DNA of 35,699 nt from Sulfurospirillaceae bacterium (GTDB lineage Bacteria > Campylobacterota > Campylobacteria > Campylobacterales > Sulfurospirillaceae): NCBI GenBank assembly GCA_028693565.1, contig JAQUVE010000011.1:1-35699 (forward strand), read 5' to 3'. Position numbers and translations under genes: made by a program. Of this stretch, positions 32,265 to 35,699 are shown one piece after another; the stretch's first letter is position 1; each line of letters starts with the position of its first letter. The notes under the pieces were generated by a model. That model was not told where the DNA came from. It ran no database searches and was given only the letters and a program-made list of their open reading frames with translations.

Positions 32265-34136
32265 ATGTCAAAACATCAATTTCAAACCGAAGTTACACAA
32301 CTTTTGGATCTCATGATTCACTCGCTCTACTCTAACAAAGAGATTTTTTTACGAGAGTTGGTCTCAAACTCTTCAGATGCCTTAGATAAGCTTAATTACC
32401 TCACGTTAACTGACGAGAAGTACAAATCAATCTCTTATGTACCACGTATTGATATCGCTTTTGATAAAGAAGCTAAAACGTTAACGATTAGTGATACAGG
32501 TATTGGTATGAATGAAGCCGAATTGATTGAAAACTTAGGAACTATTGCCAAAAGTGGCACAAAATCATTTTTAAAAAATCTAACAGGAGATACTAAAAAA
32601 GATTCTAATTTGATTGGTCAATTTGGTGTTGGTTTTTACTCTGCGTTCATGGTCGCTGATAAAATTGAAGTGACAAGCCGTAAAGCAGGTGAAGAAAGTG
32701 CTTATATGTGGAGTTCAACCGCAGGGGCTGAGTATGACATTTCCCCTGTTAGCAAAGAAACACATGGAACGTCTATTACCCTCTTTTTAAAAGAAGATGA
32801 AGGTGAATTTTTAGAGTTTTACCGCATTCAAAGCATCATTAAAAAATACTCTAACCATATTCCTTTCCCTATTTTTATGGACAAAGAAGTTAAAGAGTAT
32901 GATGATGAAGGCAAAGAAAAGAGCACTGAGATAAAAAACGAGCAGATCAATAAAGCAAGTGCGCTTTGGACAGTCGCAAAAAGCCACATCAAACCTGAAG
33001 AATATAAAGATTTTTATCAACAAATTTCTCACGATAGCACAGACCCTCTTCTTTGGAGCCATACAAAAGCTGAAGGAAAATATGAATACACTACCCTTTT
33101 CTACATTCCAACAACACCTCCTATGGACCTTTTCCGTATGGATTACAAACCAGGTGTTAAACTCTATGTTAAACGCGTATTTATAACCGATGATGAAAAG
33201 GAACTTTTACCAACCTATTTGCGTTTTGTCAAAGGTATCATCGATGCAGAAGACTTACCACTTAATGTAAGCCGTGAGATTTTGCAACAAAATAAAATCT
33301 TAGAAGCCATCAAAAAAGCATCTGTAAAAAAAATCTTAAGTGAGCTTAAATCGCTTAAAGAAAAAGAGAGTGAAAAATACCTTGAATTTTACAATAACTT
33401 TGGTCGCGTTATCAAAGAAGGCTTGTACAACGACTGGGAAAATAAAGAAGCACTTTTAGAACTCGTACTGTTCAAATCTTCAAAACGTGATGGACTGGTT
33501 AGTCTTAAAGAGTACAAAGAGGGCATGAAAGAAGATCAAAAAAGTATCTACTACATCACAGGCGAAAATGAAAGAATTCTTCGCAACTCTCCACTCATTG
33601 AGCAGTTTAAAGCCAAAGACATAGAAGTCTTGTTGCTCGATGAAGAAGTTGATGCGATCGTCTTCCCAATGGTCGGAGAGTACGATAAAACACCGATTAA
33701 GCCAGTCAATAACTCCGACATCGACGAAGAGATCAAAGAAGACAAAGCCAAAGTTGAAGAAGACGAAAAAACCTACAAAGAGATTTTGGTTAAAATGAAA
33801 GAGATTTTAAAAGACGATGCGAAAGACGTTAAAATTTCAAGCCGTTTGAGTGACTCTCCATCATGCCTTGTCTACGATAAAAACGACCCAGACTTCCAAA
33901 TGCAACAGATGCTCAAACAGATGGGACAAGACAATCTTCCAACCGTGAAGCCTATCTTAGAGATCAACCCTGAGCATGAGATTTTCAAAAAATTAAGTGC
34001 AAAATCTGATCTTTTAGAACTCAACGATGTGGCTTTCTTGCTTTTAGATCAAGCCAAACTGCAAGAAGGAATGAAAATCGACGATACGGCAGCGTTTGCA
34101 AAACGTTTGAACCGCTTTATCGCTAAAGCACTTTAA
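32265..34136 (+). CDS. htpG: Hsp90 chaperone HtpG
   Basis: ATP-dependent molecular chaperone, 623 residues. GHKL ATP site: [17 protein letters not shown] (Asn/Asp), [21 protein letters not shown], and [16 protein letters not shown]. The middle domain has the catalytic-loop region [18 protein letters not shown], and the C-terminal dimerisation domain ends [13 protein letters not shown]. Ribosome binding site AAAAGGA. It is followed by a strong hairpin of the TTTACATGTAAGGA family. I see no HAIR site upstream; the promoter is unclear. Confidence 0.97.
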
Positions 34137-34144
34137 AACATACG

Positions 34145-34176
34145 TTTACATGTAAGGATTTTTCCTTACATGTAAA
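34145..34176. terminator. 14-bp perfect hairpin after htpG (repeat family member)
   Basis: TTTACATGTAAGGA / TCCTTACATGTAAA with loop TTTT, eight bases after the htpG stop. No T-run follows the stem, though it is strong. A second hairpin with the same stem apart from one compensated pair lies at 35084-35115 after the yyaL-like gene. Confidence 0.7.
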
Positions 34177-34281
34177 AGAGAACTACCTTTACCTTTCCAA
34201 GCTATATTAAATCTCCACTTTCATAAAATATCACGCACGACTTCCAATGTTTGTAGAATTTTCATTGGTTATTGCAAATGG

Positions 34282-34291: not shown

Positions 34292-34318
34292 AAAGTTAAA
34301 AGTTTAGCCCTGATCCCT
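34292..34318 (+). repeat. 27-bp inverted repeat, left end
   Basis: Begins AAAGTTAAAAGTTTAGCCCT. Its reverse complement is at 35041-35067 with one mismatch. The two bound a 776-base block. Confidence 0.85.
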
Positions 34319-34360
34319 ATTATTTTTTTGAATAAACCAACATTTTTTGTGTTCATTTAT

Positions 34361-34390
34361 TTGAGCATATTAGGCTGTTTTGTATATAAT
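34361..34390 (+). promoter_or_regulatory. promoter for the cassette genes
   Basis: TTGAGC (34361-34366), 18-base spacer, TATAAT (34385-34390), 68 bases before the first small ORF and just upstream of the cassette boundary; placed like the promoter that serves integron cassettes. Confidence 0.5.
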
Positions 34391-34412
34391 GTTCATTGAA
34401 TAAATAGTTATC

Positions 34413-34436
34413 TCGGACGCTACGCATCCGTTATGT
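34413..34436 (+). other. left cassette boundary, partial recombination-site remnant
   Basis: A short hairpin CGGAcGC-TAC-GCaTCCG is followed by G-TTATGT, a core-like GTT boundary. I find no matching RYYYAAC box upstream, so a complete attC is not present here; it may be a remnant, an attI or a secondary site. Confidence 0.4.
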
Positions 34437-34457
34437 ATAAACCAGCAAGGAATAAAT

Positions 34458-34709
34458 GTGAAAGCTATTGTACAAGTCATTAATCGTAACAGAGGAATGT
34501 ATGCCGCTGAAATTGAAGGCCAAGGAGAATATGTAATCTTTGAACTACTGGATACAGACGAACCAGAGATTGGTGATGTCATTAGCCATCCAGATTTCTA
34601 TAGTATGGGTGGTGAAACTTTTAAGAATATCACTCAACAATGTGAAGTTGAAGTTTATGTTCAAAATGTGTGTGGTCCCAATTTAGTGCGCCAGCAATGT
34701 ATGCTTTAA
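34458..34709 (+). CDS. small cassette-encoded protein of unknown function
   Basis: 83 residues, GTG start (34458-34460) with AAGGAA seven bases upstream. Sequence style: a beta-rich start MKAIVQVINRNRGMYAAEIE, then GQGEYVIFELLDTDEPEIGD, MGGETFKN and a Cys pair near the end. It looks like a small beta-barrel (OB-like) domain. It resembles, by memory only, hypothetical proteins common in integron cassettes of marine gamma-proteobacteria. No signal peptide or membrane segment. It is the first ORF of the cassette and read from the promoter at 34361. Confidence 0.75.
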   Translation: MKAIVQVINRNRGMYAAEIEGQGEYVIFELLDTDEPEIGDVISHPDFYSMGGETFKNITQQCEVEVYVQNVCGPNLVRQQCML

Positions 34710-34728
34710 ATTAAAACAAGGAATTGAA

Positions 34729-34911
34729 ATGTCAAGTAGCTATACAGGTTTATTCGTTCAACGTTTAAGTGATGGGAAAATTCATAGTGTTCAAGTTGTT
34801 GATACTGCCGGAAATTCAATTCCATTAGATCCACATATTTATTTAGAGCGGGGTATTAAACCTCCAATGGAACAACTTCCGGATGAAAAAGAATACTACT
34901 CAAAAAAATAA
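34729..34911 (+). CDS. second small cassette-encoded protein of unknown function
   Basis: 60 residues, ATG with AAGG seven bases before it, 19 bases after the first small ORF. Sequence MSSSYTGLFVQRLSDGKIHS, a short beta-rich segment with Asn/Pro-rich LDPHIYLERGIKPPMEQLP at the end. No motif that I can name. Its stop is four bases before the attC-like site, as in compact cassettes. The two ORFs may work as a pair, but nothing in the sequence identifies a toxin-antitoxin or other system. Confidence 0.65.
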   Translation: MSSSYTGLFVQRLSDGKIHSVQVVDTAGNSIPLDPHIYLERGIKPPMEQLPDEKEYYSKK

Positions 34912-34915
34912 ATAT

Positions 34916-34984
34916 ACATAACAAATTATTGGAGAGAAATATTTGACCCTTCGGCTCAAATATTTCTCAACTCAAATGTTAGAT
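34916..34984 (+). other. attC-like recombination site (69 bp)
   Basis: Outer boxes ACATAAC (34916-34922) and GTTAGAT (34978-34984, exact GTTRRRY). Between them a perfect 13-bp stem (34934-34946 with 34956-34968) has a nine-base loop. Next to it TTGGAG faces CTCAA, an inner-box pair with one extra G, the feature that sets strand choice in real attC sites. Length is within the known 57-141 range. Confidence 0.65.
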
Positions 34985-35000
34985 GAAGGAAAAAATAGAC

Positions 35001-35063
35001 ATGAATAAATTAGATGGTTATGCAAAATTTGAAGAAAAAAAGGGGTCAGGGCTAAACTTTTAA
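35001..35063 (+). pseudogene. truncated start of a second cassette gene
   Basis: ATG at 35001 ten bases after a GAAGGA ribosome binding site that follows GTTAGAT. It reads MNKLDGYAKFEEKKGSGLNF and stops where the right inverted repeat begins. This looks like the first 13 or so codons of the next cassette gene, cut by the repeat. Confidence 0.5.
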
Positions 35064-35067
35064 CTTT
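35041..35067 (-). repeat. 27-bp inverted repeat, right end
   Basis: Reverse complement of 34292-34318 with one mismatch (35041 side reads AGGGGTCAGGGC). It interrupts the second cassette ORF, so it arrived with, or caused, the truncation. Confidence 0.85.
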
Positions 35068-35082: not shown

Positions 35083-35083
35083 T

Positions 35084-35115
35084 TTTACCTGTAAGGAGAA
35101 ATCCTTACAGGTAAA
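35084..35115. terminator. 14-bp perfect hairpin after the yyaL-like gene (repeat family member)
   Basis: TTTACCTGTAAGGA / TCCTTACAGGTAAA with loop GAAA, containing the stop codon of the leftward gene. It differs from the htpG hairpin by one A-T to C-G change matched in the other arm. Confidence 0.7.
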
Positions 35116-35699
35116 GTGTGATTGCCCTCACTGCCTCAGGATACGCATGCGCGTACTTTTGAATGCCAGCTCCAAAACTTTCCAACATATCTTTTGCTCT
35201 TATAAACAGCGCTGTGTCATCTTCAATTTTGGCTAATTCAAAGAGATTTTTAATCATCGTTGAAAGCGGACTTTTGTAGCTATTGTCTTCCAAAACGGCT
35301 TTTGCACGAAAGGCTTTATCGGAGAGGTACCAGACTTCTTCCTGACAAAATTTATGCTCCGCCTCATGGCTTAGTTTCTTTGCCAACTCTAGGTACTGCG
35401 CCTCTTTCGTATAGGCGTAAGCACGCAACACACTTTCAATGACAAACGCGTAATCTTCGAGTAACGCTTCCACTTTCAAACTGCCCCCTAAGACGATTTG
35501 ATGGTATAAAACGCCGTTTACATGTAAAGTCTTTAGAAGAGAATCAAGCACGCTTTTTGCTTTCTCAATTTTACCCGCTTCAAAAAGTGCGCTCACCATC
35601 AAAGCGTTCCACGATGTCAGAATTTTGGTGTCAATGAATGGATACACCACCTTTTGACGCTCTTTTTTGAGAAGCATCATGGCTTCATTCAAGCGAACA
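35105..35699 (-). CDS. YyaL/DUF255 thioredoxin-fold protein, C-terminal part only
   Basis: The open frame runs through the right edge (at least 197 residues), so the start and the thioredoxin-like N-domain are not in the window. What is visible is the alpha/alpha-barrel part of the family: ERQKVVYPFIDTKILTSWNALMVSALFEAGK, LLEDYAFVIESVLRAYAYT and YLELAKKLSHEAEHKF. The exact function of the family is unknown; a link to N-acylglucosamine epimerase-like folds is structural. The stop TAA lies inside the hairpin at 35084-35115. A TTTACATGTAAA palindrome falls within the coding sequence at 35517-35528. Confidence 0.85.
   Translation of the reverse strand, partial: VRLNEAMMLLKKERQKVVYPFIDTKILTSWNALMVSALFEAGKIEKAKSVLDSLLKTLHVNGVLYHQIVLGGSLKVEALLEDYAFVIESVLRAYAYTKEAQYLELAKKLSHEAEHKFCQEEVWYLSDKAFRAKAVLEDNSYKSPLSTMIKNLFELAKIEDDTALFIRAKDMLESFGAGIQKYAHAYPEAVRAITLYL
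35517..35528. repeat. TTTACATGTAAA palindrome inside the yyaL-like gene
   Basis: 12-base palindrome encoding part of LHVNG. Same core as in the hairpins at 34145-34176 and the loop at 32213-32222. Confidence 0.6.

Follow-up and report, generated by a model that had tools for sequence, protein, structure and literature searches.

How an integron gene cassette came to lie in a chromosome that carries no integrase gene is the question raised by the end of a 35,699-nt contig (C155) of a Sulfurospirillaceae bacterium, the whole of which is called the window here. attI is regarded as lying in cis with intI. In the window, a two-gene cassette follows an attI-like leader between two chromosomal genes that we take, from family knowledge, to be htpG on the left and a gene for a thioredoxin-domain/DUF255-type protein on the right (Table 1).

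Table 1. Features of the cassette locus in the window, in order of position
Feature	Position	Strand	Details
Left neighbour of the slot, presumably htpG	32265..34136	+	C-terminal 177 aa ~97-100% identical in most of 22 related loci (tblastn)
Left REP-like inverted repeat (AAAGTTAAAAGTTTAGCCCTGATCCCT...)	34292..34327	.	36-nt arm, 89% complementary to 35032-35067
Pc-attI leader, orphan	34330..34410	+	~80 bp, homologous to intI-attI intergenic region, ends ...TATAATGTTCATTGAATAAATAGTTA
Predicted -10 box TATAAT of Pc	34385..34390	+	Promoter scan 10/12
ORF-less hairpin-cassette remnant (TTATCTCGGACGCTACGCATCCG)	34408..34430	+	23 bp between leader and cassette
Integron gene cassette	34431..34978	+	548 bp, spans two G^TT crossover points
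Cassette ORF1	34458..34709	+	83 aa, GTG start
Cassette ORF2	34729..34911	+	60 aa
attC	34916..34984	+	R'' 34916-34922, R' 34978-34984, stem 34934-34946/34956-34968
Putative start of second cassette (TTAGATGAAGG...ATGAATAAATTAGATGGTTATGC...)	34979..35041	+	Truncated at right REP; read directly
Right REP-like inverted repeat	35032..35067	.	Pairs with 34292-34327
Right neighbour, 3' part	35105..35698	-	tblastn match in most of 22 related loci

The first-pass annotation had described one complete cassette with two compact ORFs and a 69-base attC-like site that ends in GTTAGAT and has a perfect 13-bp stem. All of these elements were found. The complementarity that it had claimed between 34430-34436 and 34916-34922 proved longer, since GTTATGTATA (34430-34439) pairs without a mismatch with TATACATAAC (34913-34922) over 10 nt; the start of the cassette is thus complementary to the region of its own R'' box. 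The attC extends over 69 nt from ACATAAC to GTTAGAT, with AAC/GTT cores in its R'' and R' boxes and a paired inner stem; in the modelled register, the L''/L' arm has an unpaired G and a 2-nt bulge. Its folding z-score is -5.5, and none of 200 shuffled sequences folded equally well. The crossover point lies 3' of G34978; therefore, the cassette proper has the limits given in Table 1.

Two models built from other genomes recognized this site. The first, a sequence model built from 31 attC sites, matched 34917-34983 (E 8e-16, filters off), with the palindrome read backwards (0.014) and a match at 0.34 as the next best and no other strong match in the window. The attC covariance-model scan that the first-pass annotation had proposed was run with a 21-pair model made from 11 attC sites, and it gave the window attC 86 bits (E 4e-16 over 400 kb). 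Across the whole genome, this model matched only on the window contig and on contigs C166, C95, and C208, and all of these attC matches lie at loci with the leader described below. The working attC alignment comprised a single subtype with a hand-written structure; a MAFFT alignment that mixed attC subtypes gave no consensus fold. The stem shows compensatory change, five pairs and 15 cells having changed on both sides (covariation score, 0.219 versus 0.057 shuffled). Rfam had no family at gathering score within the window. Stretches of ~65 bp resembling the window attC are present in 48 of the 397 class genomes, representing 22 genera.

The cassette genes themselves gave no family, structure, or defence match. 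ORF1 had no match in Pfam, NCBIfam, PHROG, PADLOC, or PDB, no viral relatives were found when sought, and its plasmid homologues are weak (41% and 30% identity); ORF2 matched no family in the libraries searched. An AlphaFold prediction made without an alignment reached a pLDDT of 35 and was set aside. Searches with the two proteins placed a copy in G299, a genome of another Campylobacterota family and the only other one of 397 phylum genomes with ORF1 (94% amino acid identity; 90% for ORF2). There, the two genes form a discrete unit in the first position at the attI of an intI-bearing integron, the DNA being 93% identical to the window cassette. The two cassettes are joined at the same GTTATGTATA, and the attI-cassette junction is the same GTTATGTATAAA; the adjacent intI of G299 is frameshifted. 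The absence of an attC score, together with the same genes in noncassette contexts, would have spoken against a cassette; the opposite was seen, as the models score and the genes are the first cassette of an intI-bearing integron elsewhere. Judged by its sequence, the window feature is a genuine, complete two-gene integron cassette, and we consider it almost certain that the locus combines a cassette with an orphan attI. As a separate observation, the cassette body and R'' are 93 to 95% identical between the window and G299, while the hairpin is of another subtype (window 34923-34984 versus L207/L208; 69% inner identity), and a second such pair, L114 and L199, has a body identity of 91% and an attC identity of 63%. 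On these alignments, cassettes seem able to swap attC while R'' stays.

What the first-pass annotation missed was the context of the cassette, namely, the adjoining Pc-attI leader, a hairpin-cassette remnant, and a truncated next cassette. A DNA search with the window region found partial copies on C166 and C95; the window genome has four leaders in all, and 25 of the 44 genomes of the family have copies. The leaders of G014 and G022 point away from an IntI gene at a distance of ~180 bp. A whole or partial intI was present at 11 loci, drawn from 56 named leader loci plus one further class locus; in all 11 it is divergent from the leader, and its start codon stands ~250 bp from the attI end. 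Since the leader is divergent from intI at this spacing, it represents the promoter-attI part of an integron. Moreover, all 35 attC matches in the 56 leader loci are downstream and on the leader's strand, with none in the 216,619 bases upstream of the 56 leaders. The window thus has an attI by homology to leaders beside intI, with a cassette promoter that is itself predicted: TATAAT is kept in most leader copies, the candidate -35 box TTGAGC (34361-34366) is weak, and the promoter-scan count across the region was not above that of shuffles. The leader was too short for a tree to resolve, and the htpG leaders were not shown to form one clade.

The leader-cassette junction in the window is not clean, as the 23-bp remnant lies between the two. 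Intact ORF-less hairpin cassettes stand directly 3' of attI on the genome's own contig C166 and at L127 and L172. Such cassettes were also seen directly after attI more widely (L006 1935-2092; L127, L132, L145, L147, L150, L156, L158, L168, L172, and L178); they vary in sequence, and their start and own R'' region are complementary over ~10 nt. By homology, the leader corresponds to the attI/Pc side of intact integrons, and the cassette joins it via the hairpin-cassette remnant at G^TT. On the other side, we infer the start of a second cassette because an R' junction is followed by a start codon with a ribosome-binding site.

That no integrase gene lies nearby, as the first-pass annotation had stated, is true of the entire genome (99.6% complete), in which the best TIGR02249 match scored 47.6 bits against a cut-off of 265; the intI gene of a complete integron is missing, while further attC sites lie on the three contigs named above. 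On C166 (L006, ~1611-1690), the first intI codons are followed by a deletion, and in this scar a short AAGAAAAA-type repeat marks the join between the start codons and a stretch from further along intI. C208 is, by common neighbours, the locus at which G022 keeps a broken intI, and the intI of L142 is truncated. Class-wide, at least one leader occurs in 53 of 397 genomes, at 94 sites, and a reversed control pattern gave none among the matches listed. Only 13 sites lie within 700 bp of intI, leaving 81 of 94 without an adjacent one, and 32 of the 53 leader-bearing genomes gave no intI match at E 1e-50. The view that integron cassettes are unusual in this phylum is wrong: IntI matches turned up in 41 of the 397 genomes of the class (~10%), 34 of them over the NCBIfam cut-off, and Campylobacterota have already been listed as integron hosts (PMC8618304).

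The position of the leader is conserved. Of 23 Sulfurospirillum genomes, 13 have it between htpG and the thioredoxin-domain gene, S. diekertiae JPD-1 among them, with the attI end alone in G013; three genomes have a bare gap of ~30 bp at this slot. The contents differ from genome to genome, with no mutual similarity among slot proteins at E 1e-3. Summed over the 12 slots with a readable first attC, the match between cassette start and R'' was 46, versus 18.2 when attCs were shuffled among slots (0 of 100,000 shuffles; R'' boxes chosen by eye). In several slots, the attC has degenerated or is interrupted by the right REP (G004, G016, and G011). By sequence, other species carry unrelated cassettes in the htpG slot, a different one in nearly every species, and each cassette fits its own attC. 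The slots of L093, L094, L096, and L112 contain genes for a Mrr-type IV restriction enzyme, an HNH nuclease, a PDC-M14A-like protein, and a plasmid fertility inhibition (PFIN) protein; slot genes may lean towards defence or plasmid interference. In several relatives, a right REP of the same kind lies ~20 bp ahead of the right gene's terminator. A palindrome, TTTACATGTAAGGA...TCCTTACATGTAAA, is present on both sides of the insert (34145-34177 and 35083-35115), with near-identical 32-bp copies scattered across genomes of the genus; it is probably a bidirectional terminator.

We think it probable that the cassette was inserted into an orphan integron platform, a Pc-attI without intI that was inherited through Sulfurospirillum and filled in trans. 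IntI-type recombination of attI with attC would have put the cassette into a leader without intI, the leader having passed down the genus between htpG and the thioredoxin-domain gene. Slot cassettes would be transcribed from Pc, and the slot would have been filled and refilled in trans, either by the integrase of a mobile element or by that of another chromosomal integron that has since been lost or has decayed. Without intI, the present cassette would be frozen. The trans step is the weakest part of this explanation, and on it we only lean towards supply in trans over a lost local intI.

A complete integron may instead have stood at htpG, captured cassettes locally, and then lost intI by one or repeated deletions, leaving Pc-attI and the first cassette and requiring no supply in trans. 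Loss of intI is documented elsewhere, by the C166 scar, the frameshifts in G022 and G299, and the truncation in L142, and Xanthomonas integrons decay likewise at a fixed site (PMC12444791). A local intI may have been deleted here before or during the radiation, because on the intI side the homology of the htpG leaders breaks off at varying points, about 58 to 107 bp of ~250 bp. Yet the genomes examined showed neither intI nor a remnant of it at htpG, there is no intI anywhere in the 13 genomes with an htpG leader, and the number of unrelated cassettes would call for many separate captures on the spot before intI disappeared everywhere. We regard this origin as possible but rather less than probable.

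Movement of leader and cassette together, as a nonautonomous element between inverted REP-like repeats copied by a RAYT transposase, is unlikely. Inverted REPs do flank the window unit at both ends, REP-like repeats adjoin leaders at L131, L160, and L140, where contents and boundaries are different, and a RAYT gene of the window genome is flanked by similar repeats. However, the htpG locus is orthologous rather than a new insertion, cassettes change while the leader and right flank stay, unlike in the move of a package, many leaders have no REPs, and no target-site duplication was identified. Inverted repeats as the bounds of a transposable package had been our first idea, set back once the leader proved syntenic at htpG. 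The slot itself is inherited in place; RAYT activity may have helped to copy attI first. Two loci are described here in their own right: at L012 1557-2321 (G000:C195), the RAYT (REP-associated tyrosine transposase) gene is flanked by REP-like repeats of polarity opposite to the slot's, and at L131 250-440, an empty attI and promoter, framed by a pair of inverted REP-like repeats, precede a ychF-like gene.

Off-target insertion at a chromosomal GTT site unrelated to attI is very improbable; IntI is known to use attG sites (PMC12444791, PMC12901181), but in many genomes homologues of the upstream DNA form the attI next to intI, most relatives use this very position, and the leader homology largely refutes this origin. 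A chance inverted repeat or terminator resembling attC, which AT-rich intergenic DNA with many palindromic terminators might offer, can be set aside in view of the cross-genome model matches, the permutation test, the same cassette elsewhere, and the attC relatives across the class.

Earlier work has described cassettes, Campylobacterota integrons, CALINs, and integrases that decay at a fixed site (PMC8618304, PMC10295459, PMC9024848, PMC12444791), among them In0 and CALIN elements in Sulfurimonas and CALIN in Sulfurovum (PMC10295459). Compared with the sedentary chromosomal integrons of Campylobacterota, the window shares the attC family, the leader, the cassette structure, and the divergent intI-attI layout to which that leader belongs, but its genome and locus are without intI, and attI and promoter persist alone. 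Like a CALIN (IntegronFinder, PMC9024848), it has a cassette without an integrase gene; however, the locus has a single recognized attC, the others being on separate contigs, which is below the default CALIN threshold of at least two, and it retains a homologous attI-Pc that IntegronFinder does not detect outside class 1. The Xanthomonas integron at ilvD, with its inactivated intI, likewise combines a fixed chromosomal site, diverse cassettes, and a decaying integrase (PMC12444791), whereas here there is no intI trace at the site in the genomes examined and attI is present in several copies per genome. MITE-flanked integron fragments (e.g., PMC3934969) also hold integron DNA between short inverted repeats; the slot differs in being an orthologous locus with REP-like ends and no sign that the unit as a whole has moved recently. 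No account of conserved stand-alone attI-promoter slots, or of orphan attI sites in the phylum, turned up in open-licence papers. What is new is the conserved integrase-less attI slot.

One integrase-less site has kept its place over the genus while its cassette changed, and such a one-cassette slot offers a clean natural series for dating cassette turnover against integrase loss. The data suggest that integron sites may spread through a genome and be served from elsewhere. Tentatively, at somewhat short of even confidence, we propose that many Campylobacterota chromosomes have a distributed integron, with several Pc-attI docking sites that stand alone and keep their positions throughout a genus, one or few cassettes at each, and an occasional integrase serving them in trans. 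If so, standard software, which seeks intI or at least two attC sites, misses such sites. If the slots are filled in trans, surveys that count intI or attC clusters would underestimate integron capacity, and ~80 bp of DNA would suffice for that capacity to persist and spread in the absence of its enzyme.
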